Assembly (NCBI RefSeq): GCF_002157875.1
Contig: NZ_CP021376.1
Coordinates: 2,644,501-2,708,500 of the forward strand
Direction: 5' to 3'
DNA length: 64,000 nt
Source: Oceanisphaera avium
GTDB lineage: Bacteria > Pseudomonadota > Gammaproteobacteria > Enterobacterales > Aeromonadaceae
Below the pieces are notes generated by a model. That model ran no database searches, was not told the DNA's origin, and saw only the letters and a list, made by a program, of their open reading frames with translations. How positions within the stretch are numbered: the stretch's first letter is position 1; the number at the start of each line of letters is the position of its first letter. A program made the position numbers and the translations under genes. Below are positions 56,554 through 62,453 of this stretch, in pieces.

Positions 56554-57534
56554 TTAGCGTCGAAAATTCAGATCTCCTTTAAACATCATCTCGACTCTTA
56601 ATGTTATCCCTAATTGAGGGTCGTAATCTTCTTCTCGTGGAAAGTGTAACTCTGGAATAAGATCCACAAATAAAATATTTCTATGCAGATTACGACGATA
56701 ATGAGTGTAAATATAGTAATCATGCAGACGAGGATCGGAAACACTTCGCCCCACAGCGGCTACGGCATAGCGCATTACACTGCGCGAGCCTAATAGCTGA
56801 TTGATCTCAACGCCTTCTGAATATTCTAAAGTGTCTACTTCTTCTTGCCACTGCACGTTAGTGATAAAGCGCAAATGGTGATTTTCATCTAACGGGCGCC
56901 CTAAGTCCCACTTAGTGCGTACAGAGTAGCCCTCTTTATTAAACCAAGAGGCTCTATTATAAGACTCTAATTGCCACGGCGAGTCTAAGTCCCACAGCCG
57001 TTCACCGGTAAAACGTACATAAGGGTCTGGTGGCCAACGTACTTTAACCCCAGCGCCCGCTCTTAAATTCCACGCCTCTGTTTTATCTTTTTTACTGAGC
57101 TTACTTAATCCTAATATAGTGCTGCCTACGCTATTTTGATCATTACGAATACGATTGGTGCCTTGTTCTGATAAGGTTCCTGCGGTCTCATCTGGATCAC
57201 TTTCAATAATAAAGCGCAATCTTTCTTTAGAGGTAGGTAAGTCTAAGCGAAAGCGCACCCCAGTTTTAGCATTAAAGCCGTCAGGATCGCTCCAGTCTAC
57301 CTCTTGGCTAATACGTAAAAAAGAGTCGTTGTCTACTTCCATACTCTCTTCGGTACCAAAAAAACCGTCGATACTGCGAGAGCTATTTGTCACCCATTCT
57401 GAGACCGCATCATGCATAGGGGCTATATTTTCAATAGCCCAGTCTGGTAGATCGGTATCGTCTTTAGGATCCAGCTCCGTGGCCAACACTTGCGGCGCTA
57501 AGGCCAGTGAAATGGCGAGATAAATTTTTTTCAT
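56554..57534 (-). CDS. Exported protein of unknown function, likely beta-rich
   Basis: The 326-residue protein has a cleavable signal peptide (about residues 1-18, ending VLA) and many short alternating aromatic/polar stretches (FRLDLPTSKERLRFIIE, VRWPPDPYVRFTGE, YSVRTKWDLG) such as are seen in outer-membrane beta-barrels. An acidic region follows the signal. AAGGGA precedes the ATG. It is downstream of the HPr-kinase/PqqD gene on the same strand, about 205 bases away, so cotranscription is possible but not shown. Confidence 0.7.
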   Translation of the reverse strand: MKKIYLAISLALAPQVLATELDPKDDTDLPDWAIENIAPMHDAVSEWVTNSSRSIDGFFGTEESMEVDNDSFLRISQEVDWSDPDGFNAKTGVRFRLDLPTSKERLRFIIESDPDETAGTLSEQGTNRIRNDQNSVGSTILGLSKLSKKDKTEAWNLRAGAGVKVRWPPDPYVRFTGERLWDLDSPWQLESYNRASWFNKEGYSVRTKWDLGRPLDENHHLRFITNVQWQEEVDTLEYSEGVEINQLLGSRSVMRYAVAAVGRSVSDPRLHDYYIYTHYRRNLHRNILFVDLIPELHFPREEDYDPQLGITLRVEMMFKGDLNFRR

Positions 57535-57739
57535 GGCGATGTCCCTTGGCCTTTTACTTAACGCTATGATTTTCGAGAGTAAAAAACCAATACCATTATT
57601 AATAAACGTGACGCGGATAGCGTAAACTGAGTATTTAAGTAGCTAATACTATGGTCATATATTCGTTTAGGCGAGGCGAGTTATTTTTAAACGGCCAAAT
57701 AAAAAGAGCTCTATTAGTGACCTAGTGGCTAGCACTGGA

Positions 57740-58945
57740 TTAGCACTGAGTGATCAATTCGGCTTGGTTAAGTATGGCTAGTAAGGCGGCGATATCTAAG
57801 TTAACCGTAGCTGTTGGCACTTGAAAATGAGTCGCAATAATCTCGCTTAGCTCTACTGCGGTGATGGCCTCTTGTTGCAATAATTGCCAAGCCACTTTGC
57901 CGCTAGAGTTAAGACGATGAATGGCACCACTTTCATTATGGATCAGAAATAACTCTTCAGCTAACGGGTAGCTAGTGACACTAGGTGAAGCAGTCCACTT
58001 ACTATCTGCTTTTTGAACATAAATTTTATCTTGCTCATTAGTGGGTGCTGTAGGTGGTACCTTAATCAAGCTGGCTCGATTCATATTTTGTAAGTGAGGG
58101 TGTTTAATGACCTCGGCTAAGTAACGTGCACCGACTAAGGGCTCAGAGTAGCGTAATAGCAAGCAGGGTACACTTTGCATCAAGGGTAATAAGCGCTGTA
58201 AAAGTATTGAGGTTTGGGCTTCACGAGCAAAGTTTTGGCAAAGTAATTGTAATAAACCTTCCGCAGGCGGTAGGGTCACGACTTGAGGATGAGTAATGCT
58301 GGCATCGCGTTCTAATAAAACAATGGCACCTATTGGACAGCGCTCATCTAAATGGGCTAGGCCACCAGACTTTGGCAGCACAAAGCGATAGCGATCATCT
58401 TCAGGACCTGCATAACGGTTCGCATAATCCACAAACTCAGCGGAGAAACTCGCCGGTAAAGGTAAACGCAATCTAGGCGCAACGCCCATGGCAACCCCTT
58501 CGCCATTTTCTGTTAGCCCTAATACGTCATCCCCAAATAAACGATAGCCGGCTGCGGCAAAGGCCACGGACAAGGTACTTTTACCCGCTTTGCTACTTTC
58601 AGGAAATAGCACTAATCGCTGGTTGATCTCTACACTGGCACAATGTAGCCCTAAGAGCTCAGGTTGAGTTTGTAACCGCTCGCTTAAAAGATCGCCAACT
58701 AAGCTACAAGCCGCAGAAGCGGGGGAGGGGAGATGAAATTCATTAGCTTCATGCAAAGAACCTTGCCATAAGCCGGTAGCATCACGATAAATATAGCGCG
58801 TTGGCAAGATTGAGCTTGGCGGACTTACCTTGATAGGCCAGCTAGGCATAGCTTGCATTAGAGCCTGTACCACTTCTGGAACGCCATCAACCCGTAAGCA
58901 ACGCCCCACATAAGGCAGCTCTAAATCGACGATATCTTGGTTCAT
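57740..58945 (-). CDS. HPr-kinase-like and PqqD-like domain fusion protein
   Basis: The 401-residue protein has a region resembling HprK: His101 in GLHCASVEI, a P-loop-type segment PESSKAGKST (115-124) and FGDDVLGL (GDD at 138-140). The first Gly of Walker A is replaced by Glu116. Residues about 325-401 resemble PqqD, with EELFLIHNESGAIHRLN and VAWQLLQ, the fold that binds leader peptides in RiPP pathways. Its ATG overlaps the stop of the preceding small gene (TAATG), so the two are translationally coupled. I infer kinase-type modification of that peptide; no substrate is proven. Confidence 0.75.
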   Translation of the reverse strand: MNQDIVDLELPYVGRCLRVDGVPEVVQALMQAMPSWPIKVSPPSSILPTRYIYRDATGLWQGSLHEANEFHLPSPASAACSLVGDLLSERLQTQPELLGLHCASVEINQRLVLFPESSKAGKSTLSVAFAAAGYRLFGDDVLGLTENGEGVAMGVAPRLRLPLPASFSAEFVDYANRYAGPEDDRYRFVLPKSGGLAHLDERCPIGAIVLLERDASITHPQVVTLPPAEGLLQLLCQNFAREAQTSILLQRLLPLMQSVPCLLLRYSEPLVGARYLAEVIKHPHLQNMNRASLIKVPPTAPTNEQDKIYVQKADSKWTASPSVTSYPLAEELFLIHNESGAIHRLNSSGKVAWQLLQQEAITAVELSEIIATHFQVPTATVNLDIAALLAILNQAELITQC

Positions 58946-59271
58946 TAACGGCGCTGAGGTCCTAAAATTGCATCTTCTAAGATACGAATGGGATCTTCTG
59001 TATACTCGCGAACGCGTTCTCTAGGGCGGTAATCATAACGGCTAATACGCGAATAACTGGGTCTTGAGTAACTCGGGTAAGAGTAACTGCTGCTCCAACT
59101 TCCCGCTTGAACTTGACCTATGCTAAACAGCGTAGGAGCCACATAGGCACCTGCGATGCCTGCGCCGATCATTGTTAATAATCTTCTACGAGTTTGGCGT
59201 TTTTGCTCCGTCTCGTTAAGTTTAGCTTGTTCATCTGCCGTTTGATTTTTATCAAGTTTATTATGCGGCAT
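58945..59271 (-). CDS. Tat-leader small protein with Ser/Tyr-rich tail
   Basis: The start at 59271 is set by GGAGG five bases upstream; an in-frame ATG at 59316 has no such site. The 108-residue protein has a charged N-region, a twin-arginine motif TRRRLLT (27-33), a hydrophobic stretch to about residue 54, and a possible cleavage after VQA (54-56). The tail (57-108) opens with alternating Ser, Tyr and Pro (about 58-83) and ends with a charged Arg/Glu segment. It is coupled to the HPr-kinase/PqqD gene and is a plausible substrate. I know no named family for it. Confidence 0.7.
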   Translation of the reverse strand: MPHNKLDKNQTADEQAKLNETEQKRQTRRRLLTMIGAGIAGAYVAPTLFSIGQVQAGSWSSSYSYPSYSRPSYSRISRYDYRPRERVREYTEDPIRILEDAILGPQRR

Positions 59272-59492
59272 AGATGCCTCCAAATGTTTACTTACTACTA
59301 GCGATAATTCCACCATAACACTGGCTAAGCTTTGTCTCTAGCCAATGCGCGCAACCGTCAGACTTAAACTGTCGCTAATTAAGGTTTTCTTTAACTGTTT
59401 TGCCAGTAATAGCATAAGCCTGACTCGAATACTCGTTACACAATGCTCCTTATTGGTCTTTTCGGTTAACTGTTTCCTAGTTAATCCTTTCT

Positions 59493-61400
59493 TTAAGAGG
59501 AGCGTTTTTTCTTAAAGTACTTTTTAATGGCTTTATATTCATCTAGCTTTATCATTTTCTCTGATAGTTCTAATGCAGCTATAATAGAGATATGAGCGCC
59601 GTCTGCCGAATAAGGGATTTCCCTAGAATTAGCTACCAAGGTATCATTAGTAAATAATTTATCTTTATGAACGTAGATAAATTTATTATTACGTTGCGCA
59701 AGTTGAGCAAGTTGTTGTTCAACCTGATCGATGTATTTAGTGTTTTCTTCTTCGGCTATAAAAGATTTATTATCGAGTGCAGGGCCACCTAGTAAATGAG
59801 ATATGTAATCCTCTCCGATATTTCTTTTATAAATACTAGGACTAGGTAGATATACCATCGCCGTTCCTTGCTCTGTAATATGATTAATCATATTGATGAC
59901 TTCTTCGGGAGAAGTGTTTTCATAGTTAAGAAATGCGTCCCAGCGCGCAGAGATAAAGATCATATCATAATTTTTTATATTGTTTTCTACATACTCTCGA
60001 TTAGCCATACATTGGCTATATCCTATGTGACTGGGTTCACCATTAAATTCCTTAGAAAAAGAGGGGTAACAAGAGTTTGTAGTAATGGCATCAATAGCAA
60101 TGTTTTCGTATTTTCCAATAATATCTAATAGGGGCTCAAAGTGGCCTGCAAAAGAATCACCAAATAATAATACTCGAGACGTTTTTTTAGTTAAGCCGAT
60201 TTTGCAGTTTAAATAATCATCGTCTGCTACCCCAGCACCTGGTGAGCCAAAGCAGTAACCGCTTTCGCGACTCGCCATATCATAAACCTCTAAGTTCCCT
60301 AATGCTTGTTGCTTGTTTTGATAATGACTGAATATTAAACTTCCTGAAGCGCATACTAATATAGCAACATACAGTACTTTAAGTTTAACTAAACTAAATA
60401 TATTGTTTAAATCAAAATTAAATCTAATGCTTTCTATATATTTAAAGCTTAAATATCCTAACAAAACAGATAAGGGAATAGCTAAATAAGCAAGAGAGCT
60501 TTTTAATGAGAAATAATAAATAGCTACTACTAGTGGCCAATGCCATAAATAAATAGAGTAAGACCAGGCCCCTAACTTTTCAAATATAATATTTCCTGTA
60601 ATTATACTATCGTTGCGCTGTGCTTGGATAATAAAGAAAGCGCCTACTACTGGGAATAATGCGATTAAACCTGGCCAAGGTGTACTTGCAGAGACAAAAA
60701 AATATGAGCCCAAAATAAAGGTCAATCCAGTTAGCTCTAACATTTTCTTTTGTCTGGTGGTGGTGCTAAAGGGGTACACATAAGCAAGCCCACCTACCAT
60801 CATCTCCCACGCTCGACTAGAGAGTAAGTAGTAAGCGGAGCTGGGTGCAGTTGAAGTTAAGTAAATACAATATAAGAAACTAATGGCGCTAGCATAGATA
60901 ATTATCTTTTTTAATGTTTGCTGACTAGTTAATTTATATAAAGCCAAAAGAACGAGAGGATATATAATGTAGAATTGCCATTCTACTGAAAGTGACCAAG
61001 TGTGAAGGAGCCATTTTTCAAGAGAAGAAGCGTCGAAATATCCCGCTTCATTAAGGTAAATAATGTTAGACAGAAAAGCCATACTACCTGTAACGTGCTT
61101 ACCTAATAACTTATGCTCTAATGGCGTTAAATATAAATAACCAAAGATAAGAAGCGTTAAGCACAGTACGGCCAAAGCGGGGATGATCCTATTTGCTCTA
61201 GCTACATAAAATTTTAATAAAGAAAAATTTTCTTTTTCTATTCCTCTAAATATTATCCCAGTCATTAAGAAACCTGAAATAACAAAAAATACGTCTACGC
61301 CTGCAAATCCACCTGGTAGCCAAGTGGGATTAAAGTGAAAGATTACCACTGCTATTACTGCCAGTGCTCTTAATCCATTAATATCTTTTCTAAATTTCAC
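59493..61400 (-). CDS. OafA-type membrane acyltransferase with SGNH domain
   Basis: The 635-residue protein has an acyltransferase-3 membrane domain of about ten helices (from FRKDINGLRALAV, with the conserved His22 in VIFHF) and a C-terminal SGNH domain starting near residue 365, with LFGDSFAGHF and the D600/H603 pair in SADGAHIS. Such proteins O-acetylate LPS, peptidoglycan or other glycans. The start is GTG. The gene is clearly more AT-rich than its neighbours and is followed by a long AT-rich non-coding stretch, suggesting transfer. Confidence 0.9.
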   Translation of the reverse strand: MKFRKDINGLRALAVIAVVIFHFNPTWLPGGFAGVDVFFVISGFLMTGIIFRGIEKENFSLLKFYVARANRIIPALAVLCLTLLIFGYLYLTPLEHKLLGKHVTGSMAFLSNIIYLNEAGYFDASSLEKWLLHTWSLSVEWQFYIIYPLVLLALYKLTSQQTLKKIIIYASAISFLYCIYLTSTAPSSAYYLLSSRAWEMMVGGLAYVYPFSTTTRQKKMLELTGLTFILGSYFFVSASTPWPGLIALFPVVGAFFIIQAQRNDSIITGNIIFEKLGAWSYSIYLWHWPLVVAIYYFSLKSSLAYLAIPLSVLLGYLSFKYIESIRFNFDLNNIFSLVKLKVLYVAILVCASGSLIFSHYQNKQQALGNLEVYDMASRESGYCFGSPGAGVADDDYLNCKIGLTKKTSRVLLFGDSFAGHFEPLLDIIGKYENIAIDAITTNSCYPSFSKEFNGEPSHIGYSQCMANREYVENNIKNYDMIFISARWDAFLNYENTSPEEVINMINHITEQGTAMVYLPSPSIYKRNIGEDYISHLLGGPALDNKSFIAEEENTKYIDQVEQQLAQLAQRNNKFIYVHKDKLFTNDTLVANSREIPYSADGAHISIIAALELSEKMIKLDEYKAIKKYFKKKRSS

Positions 61401-62084: not shown

Positions 62085-62160
<76 letters not shown>

Positions 62161-62165
62161 TTAAA

Positions 62166-62241
62166 TGGTGCCCGGAGACGGAATCGAACCGCCGACACGA
62201 GGATTTTCAATCCTCTGCTCTACCGACTGAGCTATCCGGGC
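62166..62241 (-). tRNA. tRNA-Phe (anticodon GAA), copy 3
   Basis: A 76-base tRNA with acceptor GCCCGGA/TCCGGGC, anticodon stem-loop GAGGATTGAAAATCCTC (anticodon GAA), GGTTCGATTCC T-arm and encoded CCA. It is identical to the two copies upstream and five bases from tRNA-Thr. Confidence 0.97.
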
Positions 62242-62271
62242 TAAACATGCTGTAACAATGTTATATTAAAA

Positions 62272-62347
62272 TGGTGCCCGGAGACGGAATCGAACCGCCG
62301 ACACGAGGATTTTCAATCCTCTGCTCTACCGACTGAGCTATCCGGGC
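62272..62347 (-). tRNA. tRNA-Phe (anticodon GAA), copy 2
   Basis: Identical to the other copies. The copies start at an exact 106-base interval and the spacers between them are similar, which indicates recent tandem duplication. Confidence 0.97.
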
Positions 62348-62377
62348 TAAACATGCCGTGACATCGTTATATTAAAA

Positions 62378-62453
62378 TGGTGCCCGGAGACGGAATCGAA
62401 CCGCCGACACGAGGATTTTCAATCCTCTGCTCTACCGACTGAGCTATCCGGGC
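62378..62453 (-). tRNA. tRNA-Phe (anticodon GAA), copy 1
   Basis: First tRNA of the operon, 13 bases after the -10 element. Same sequence as copies 2 and 3. Confidence 0.97.

Follow-up and report, generated by a model that had tools for sequence, protein, structure and literature searches.

A conserved proteobacterial gene pair of a small Tat-leader protein and a kinase-PqqD fusion, a candidate cassette for leader-directed modification and export

Introduction

Why is a small protein with an export signal encoded in overlap with a kinase that carries a PqqD-like domain? The question is raised by two genes of Oceanisphaera avium, located in a stretch of 64,000 nucleotides (contig NZ_CP021376.1, positions 2,644,501 to 2,708,500), here called the window, to which all coordinates below refer. 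Signal peptides are described as highly unusual in precursors of bacterial ribosomally synthesized and posttranslationally modified peptides (RiPPs), and export before modification must be prevented somehow; for RiPPs with Sec signals, masking has been suggested (PMC12452194; here and below, papers are cited for what the available parts of their text state). An earlier note, made from the letters of the window alone, had proposed kinase-type modification of the small protein followed by export via twin-arginine translocation (Tat). In this study, we examined the two genes and their relatives by computational analysis. Of the two overlapping genes, one appears to encode a small exported protein and the other a kinase that recognizes the export signal of this protein and modifies the protein before it leaves the cell.

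Results

As read from the sequence, the first gene (58945..59271, minus strand) encodes a precursor protein of 108 amino acids, or of 123 if an alternative upstream ATG at 59316 is used. Its leader is of the Tat type (TRRRLLTMIGAGIAGAYVAPTLFSIGQVQA), with the twin-arginine core R28-R29-R30 at 59182..59190 and, inside the Tat signal, the YxxPxL motif YVAPTL (residues 43 to 48, 59128..59145), a candidate binding element for a RiPP recognition element (RRE). A signal-peptidase site, V-Q-A, is predicted at residues 54 to 56 (59104..59112), where relatives have A-x-A. The predicted mature part (residues 57 to 108, 58948..59103), which would be the target of the proposed modification, consists of a stretch rich in Ser, Tyr, Pro, and Arg and a C terminus resembling REYxxDPxxILEDxIxG. 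The protein has 56 homologs and no Pfam domain, and source names, where given, are "hypothetical" or "uncharacterized." Its stop codon has one base in common with the start of the second gene (57740..58945, minus strand), which encodes a fused protein of 401 amino acids. This protein is composed of a kinase part with the HprK/PEPCK fold (residues 1 to 291, 58073..58945), including the P-loop FPESSKAGKST at approximately 58574 to 58603, and a PqqD/RRE domain (residues 315 to 401, 57743..58003), in which N346 (57908 to 57910) and D384 (57794 to 57796) are the predicted contacts to YxxP.

Both genes recur together well beyond the window. Genome contigs were scanned with the kinase alignment, and of the 101 relatives obtained, the 80 best were retained as loci. 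A small protein with an RR...YxxP leader is encoded upstream on the same strand in 79 of these 80 loci, and its gene ends between 326 bases before and 2 bases after the start of the kinase match. In the window, the Ser/Tyr-rich Tat-leader protein and the overlapping kinase-PqqD fusion are as described in the earlier note. The same note had suggested looking for homologs of the small protein beside the kinase in other bacteria, and this search bore it out. Among 61 relatives, both genes occur in the same 5 genomes. In 398 genomes drawn evenly from Pseudomonadota, strong kinase matches (E < 1e-30) and strong leader matches (E < 1e-9) fall in the same 8 genomes and are adjacent in 7 (hypergeometric P = 7e-17). 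In 289 genomes from the class of genome G384, 23 hold a strong kinase match (1e-17) and 23 a strong leader match (1e-7), with 22 in common, 14 of them adjacent (P = 1e-30). These cut-offs were chosen after the lists had been seen; with the searches' own thresholds, 15 kinase and 13 leader genomes have 9 in common in the first set (P = 5e-12), and 27 and 24 have 22 in common in the second (P = 4e-26). Three genomes (G074, G368, and G384) belong to both sets, which thus overlap slightly, and more copies per genome are possible, as only 4 to 6 kinase and 19 to 26 leader first-look candidates were scored in each. The pair is a conserved unit recurring across many proteobacteria.

The leader has the features of a Tat substrate, namely, a twin-arginine motif, a hydrophobic stretch, and an A-x-A-like site (V-Q-A in the window), and TatC is encoded in all 12 pair-bearing genomes tested. 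Within this predicted Tat signal itself lies YxxP followed by any residue and a hydrophobic one, the motif known from lasso-peptide RREs; YxxPxL is bound by the RREs of lasso and LPP systems (PMC13381572, PMC10368454). Across 89 leaders, 79 from small proteins and 10 from larger ones described below, the residue before Pro is Ala in 83, Thr in 3, Ser in 2, and Val in 1, and the second residue after Pro is Leu in 72, Met in 8, Val in 5, and Phe in 4. The window leader (YVAPTLFSIG) can be aligned with YSAPQLKFWG of a lasso-type precursor in locus L175. The motif expression matches 99 of the 5384 open reading frames (ORFs) of the loci, and 88 of the 99 lie upstream, on the plus strand, within 2.6 kb. 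Among the remaining 11 is a true second precursor, a paralogous Tat-YxxP small protein encoded approximately 3.5 to 3.9 kb upstream of one kinase in Guyparkeria sp. SCN-R1 (L055). As a control, generic Tat signals matched by PF10518 were inspected. Y..P was present in 0 and W..P in 1 (L116) of 28 clean reads, which remained from 30 after L121 and L122 had been dropped as apparent wrong-strand reads; on single-strand reading, 14 were resolved, none with the motif.

The domain that would bind this motif is well supported. PF05402 (PqqD) matches residues 331 to 398 with 37.1 bits (gathering score, 23.4), the nearest PqqD model in NCBIfam is a lasso-peptide one (23 of 70 bits), and lasso and LPP RREs are the best sequence relatives in the PDB. 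In a fold comparison (VIA-align), the window RRE matched TbiB1 with its leader at a root mean square deviation of 1.6 Å. Two contacts described in PMC13381572, an Asp bonded to the motif Tyr and an Asn holding the Pro kink, correspond to D384 and N346; the Asp is present in all 80 aligned rows with a residue there, and the Asn in 67 of 80. Judged from conservation, co-occurrence, and fold, it is highly probable that the RRE recognizes the Tat leader.

The HprK/PEPCK fold was confirmed for the N-terminal 291 residues. The P-loop, the catalytic His, and the Asp-Asp pair, whose roles are known from HprK, are present in all 81 aligned proteins, with the window kinase aligned to HprK of L. casei. 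The earlier note's pairing of an HprK-like P-loop domain with a PqqD-like domain was confirmed on both sides, with the P-loop intact, and the ATP-site residues, which it had named as the point to check, are in place. Matches to Hpr_kinase_C (PF07475; 13.1 of 33.3 bits) and to the HPr kinase/phosphorylase model TIGR00679 (11.9 of 240 bits) stay below the cut-offs. A tree of 47 rows, unrooted and with several long branches, places the window kinase beside that of Oceanisphaera pacifica. The kinase of Paenalcaligenes hominis is nested among Oceanisphaera and Halomonadaceae proteins in a group of four with 99/96 support, a placement that suggests lateral transfer. The kinases of the pair are set apart from lasso-cluster kinases with 96/97 support; the latter are represented by three distinct proteins, L147 and L177 having the same one and the kinase of L174 being absent from the tree.

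We then compared the tails. In the 79 small proteins (L013 to L092), Ser makes up 17.7% of the mature tails, compared with 5.2% of the kinases, and the lowest tail has 8%. The last residue is Trp in 48 of the 79, preceded by Arg in 46 of these, and a short, alternating hydrophobic stretch often precedes the terminal Trp. The loci from L072 to L092 are mainly alphaproteobacterial, and in 10 of these 21 a larger protein carries the same leader, a Ser-containing stretch, and a subtilase-like domain (L072, L074, L076, L079, L080, L082, L083, L085, L088, and L092). Its gene lies upstream of the small gene, about 1.7 to 2.0 kb upstream of the kinase match, and Peptidase_S8 was found by Pfam in both such proteins tested (E = 1.7e-31 and 8.8e-25). 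By their leaders, these subtilases are apparent second substrates. Seven of the 10 loci also hold a sigma-70-type gene (tested with Pfam in two) beside a gene for an anti-sigma-like protein, the one tested example of which had no Pfam match.

The two parts are also found apart. Leader and kinase genes are separated by about 25 to 120 kb on one contig in five genomes (G074, G523, G621, G634, and G640). G519 has them on separate contigs, each gene tens of kilobases from the contig ends, so that in these six genomes the parts are about 25 kb or more apart. In G506 and G554 they also fall on different contigs, though these set no lower bound on the distance. The stretches around the kinase in G519, G621, G634, G523, and G640 were searched for a leader, and none was found. 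The coupling of leader and kinase thus outlives their linkage. A PF05402 search of 22 genomes, which did not include G384 and G368, found the domain encoded in all 20 with both leader and kinase; it adjoins a split kinase in 16 of the 20 and forms the fused C terminus in G462 and G651. The kinase of G074 (L171/L172) was considered a possible pseudogene with in-frame stops, a view we rejected since the region reads as two overlapping genes, one for the kinase and one for the PqqD/RRE protein; the only Tat-YxxP peptide found there is encoded approximately 40 kb away. Just after the leader, 11 of 13 precursors from split-kinase genomes have [ST]-x-C, for example, in AFPSNCAGGG or VLPSPCAGRGRRRRR. 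Two unlinked Tat-YxxP peptide genes (L203 in G519 and L205 in G621) are next to a gene whose product has 1460 to 1489 amino acids and, in L205, contains 29 stretches of RTX calcium-binding repeats. Split kinase and PqqD genes in L204 and L206 adjoin a response regulator (Response_reg plus Trans_reg_C in L206), presumably one resembling CtrA. Neither the YxxPxL motif in the Tat signal nor the subtilases nor the unlinked and split versions had been part of the earlier note.

Finally, we examined the surroundings of the pair. Two pair-bearing genomes (G005 and G011) have the gene order MutY, YggX, pair, beta-rich protein, and ABM, and the window has the same order apart from an acyltransferase gene. 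The order MutY-YggX-beta-rich-ABM occurs without the pair in G007 and G013, in G017 YggX and the beta-rich protein are present and the pair is missing, and the stretches of G016 and G001 cover only part of the region, again without it. The downstream beta-rich protein, which the earlier note had counted as part of the locus, is encoded in 17 of 19 genomes, the window's own and others of its genus, with or without the pair, and we rejected it as a third component, since it is a genus core gene independent of the pair. The upstream gene for an AT3 acyltransferase with an SGNH domain (59493 to 61400) was likewise rejected, as it had no match in 7 of 7 stretches, including the pair-bearing G005 and G011. 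ORF clustering of the neighbors, in which many entries were antisense ORFs and were disregarded, brought out no third gene conserved across lineages. Most of the clustering reflects local synteny in Halomonas/Vreelandella; genes for sigma factors and subtilases occur in only part of L072 to L092. A row of one tRNA-Thr and three tRNA-Phe genes (62085 to 62453), which may be an insertion hot spot, flanks the accessory cassette toward YggX.

Discussion

What, then, would the pair do? The best explanation in our view is a two-gene cassette for leader-directed modification and export, to which we assign a probability of roughly 60%; the sequence of modification and Tat export proposed in the earlier note is thereby retained. 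The first step, strongly supported by conservation, co-occurrence, and fold, would be capture of the precursor in the cytoplasm by the PqqD/RRE domain of the kinase, via YxxP-x-hydrophobic in the hydrophobic part of the Tat signal. By analogy with the kinases of lasso and LPP systems, the precursor held by its leader would then be presented to the HprK-like site, and phosphate from ATP would be transferred to Ser after the leader, probably at many sites in SRPSYSRP-like tails and at one or few in PSPC-like tails. Because the RRE would cover the Tat signal, export would have to wait until the modification is done and the leader released. Proofreading by Tat chaperones offers an analog for such a delay. 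Tat export and signal-peptidase cleavage would finally give a small, modified, mostly basic periplasmic protein, as the signal predicts.

Phosphorylation of Ser in the tail is our leading guess for the chemistry, held at somewhat better than even odds, because homologous kinases phosphorylate Ser and the tails are so rich in this residue. The kinases of paeninodin and of proteobacterial lasso peptides target a C-terminal Ser, the proteobacterial ones adding several phosphates (PMC8498205), BsfK targets Ser3 with acceleration by its RRE (PMC10368454), and LppK places two phosphates on Ser3 and does not phosphorylate Thr or Tyr variants (PMC13381572). As to the product, the basic, His- and Ser-rich tails invite no more than a guess, namely, that they bind metal, polymers of the envelope, or partners bridged by phosphate.

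Several observations weigh against the proposed cassette. A Ser/Tyr-rich tail holds for the window protein and fails as a universal trait, since the precursors of G074, G519, G621, G523, G634, and G640 have tails rich in Gly, Pro, and Cys or in Arg with one to three Ser, so multi-site phosphorylation cannot be general. The Asn contact of the RRE is replaced by Ser or Asp in 13 of 80 rows, and in G534 and G630 the nearest PqqD gene is approximately 26 to 28 kb from the kinase, with none beside it. At E values up to 0.001, PF10518 left the window's own leader unmatched, its sole match in G000 lying elsewhere, and the Pfam search that found PqqD gave no PF10518 match either, so that predicted Tat export rests on the motif. 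The rows of leader alignment A2 were picked by an expression demanding RR and Y..P, and in part A-x-A, which makes the invariance of RR and YxxP there a matter of construction; the control Tat signals come from relatives of the window only, several being copies of the same few proteins. The nearest NCBIfam kinase family, HprK-related kinase A, is matched with 37.5 of the 200 bits of its cut-off, and the kinase chemistry is therefore carried over from distant relatives. No precursor was found beside the kinase in 1 of the 80 loci (L089), and in the class set G611 has a kinase with no leader match, while G547 has a leader match with neither a kinase nor any PF05402 match, so that the leader motif can occur outside the coupling with a kinase. 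The solitary Tat-YxxP protein of G547 (L214) has no Ser in its mature part.

The strongest of the rival explanations regards the RRE-kinase mainly as a proofreading chaperone of the Tat signal, with ATP use driving release and not modification of the tail. The location of the motif within the Tat signal itself would suit this role, as would a conserved leader in front of tails that vary enormously and in some cases have hardly any Ser. Against it, the active-site residues of a protein kinase are invariant, characterized homologs with RRE partners modify Ser of their precursors (PMC10368454, PMC13381572), and the 79 small tails are Ser enriched overall, with 8% in the lowest. We regard this explanation as unlikely.

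A second rival keeps the cassette and changes its chemistry: the kinase-fold domain might polyphosphorylate or nucleotidylate the tail or activate it for cross-links or dehydration, so that the product would not be a simple phosphopeptide. The 291-residue part aligns over 255 to 270 residues with PEPCK, compared with about 132 with HprK (VIA-align), the [ST]-x-C after the leaders of split-kinase genomes points the same way, and lasso and LPP kinases can place several phosphates on one Ser (PMC8498205, PMC13381572). Against this stand the conserved His and Asp-Asp of the HprK type and the outcome of ORF clustering, in which no further modifying enzyme emerged as conserved across lineages; such chemistry seems quite improbable to us.

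That the pair is a lasso-peptide cluster, intact or decayed, is very doubtful. Leader motif, RRE, and kinase are all lasso-like, and weak kinase matches elsewhere adjoin asparagine-synthase genes (L173, L174, L175, and L177), as seen in the four of seven weak-kinase genomes of the phylum set that were inspected (G183, G143, G435, and G187; G061, G075, and G282, and G477 and G524 of the class set, were outside this inspection). Yet the cyclase and B2, searched with one query each from L175, gave 0 tblastn matches at E = 1e-3 in the 80 loci (no genome-wide cyclase search was made), PF13471 is found in 1 of 12 pair-bearing genomes, and the kinases form a branch apart from the three distinct lasso-cluster kinases; on these grounds we rejected a lasso cluster. 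Chance neighborhood without functional coupling, for which only the partnerless L089 and the single parts in G611 and G547 could be cited, has a negligible probability given the near-complete co-occurrence, unlinked cases included.

If the cassette reading is true, a bound RRE would physically mask the Tat signal, because the motif sits within the signal peptide, and masking would answer the question of premature export. Exported bacterial proteins would have a Ser-kinase pathway, and Tat would be added to the export routes of such peptides. A role is thereby suggested for proteins that currently go by the names "PqqD family protein" and "hypothetical protein," and the pairing may illustrate how cells complete a protein prior to export. 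Opinion is evenly balanced, in our judgment, on a wider proposal, a widespread unnamed class in Pseudomonadota in which the Tat signal doubles as the RRE recognition sequence and the kinase-RRE would both modify its targets and control their export. It would act in trans and, in some genomes, have several substrates, which range from small SRPSYSRP or GGG/PSPC peptides to subtilases.

The combination of an RRE, an HprK-like kinase, and a YxxP leader is already known from LPP clusters of Bacillota and from lasso clusters. A Tat signal as RRE leader, a fused kinase-RRE, and a cassette of only these two genes were not found among the matches listed in the open-licence literature, as judged by listings and the openings of abstracts; the words "kinase" and "HPr" were not found in the available portions of the main text of RRE-Finder (PMC7470986) and of a structure-based RRE survey (PMC12710340). 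Canonical HPr kinase/phosphorylase differs from the window protein, which has another N-terminal part, a C-terminal RRE, and a Pfam score below the cut-off, and HPr is not the substrate that we would expect. The HPr-rel-A system (TIGR04352/TIGR04353) provides the nearest curated kinase family and, within the same named system, a PqqD family; the window protein reaches only 37.5 of 200 and 15.9 of 35 bits, and nine proteins of relatives are also below their cut-offs.

Among lasso peptides, paeninodin-like and other clusters with an HPr-kinase homolog (PadeK, BsfK; PMC8498205, PMC10368454) share the kinase fold, the RRE B1, the YxxPxL leader, and the Ser target, with WxxP in place of YxxP in paeninodin-like leaders. 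The lasso-type cluster of L175 (G435), comprising asparagine synthase, Transglut_core3, PqqD, an HprK-like kinase, and its short YSAPQLKFWG precursor, displays the parent theme, with no Tat signal. In contrast to these systems, no cyclase or B2 was found at the loci described here, the kinases are a separate branch, and the precursor resembles an exported protein, with about 70 to 170 amino acids and often a repetitive tail. LPP RiPPs of Bacillota (LppA/LppB/LppK; PMC13381572) likewise combine a YxxP leader, a PqqD-like RRE, and an HprK-like kinase that phosphorylates Ser of the precursor, but they have a discrete RRE, a dedicated SpI-like peptidase, a transporter, and an NTP transferase, whereas the pair has its RRE fused to the kinase (the two are separate in many alphaproteobacteria), a predicted Tat signal as leader, and no more than two genes conserved across lineages. 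A signal peptide is likewise found in place of the leader in bufferins and other MNIO-modified RiPPs (PMC12452194), for which the same question of premature export is raised; there, MNIO enzymes and DUF2063-type partners act on Cys-containing substrates of the Sec route, whereas the pair described here brings together a kinase, a PqqD RRE, and Tat.

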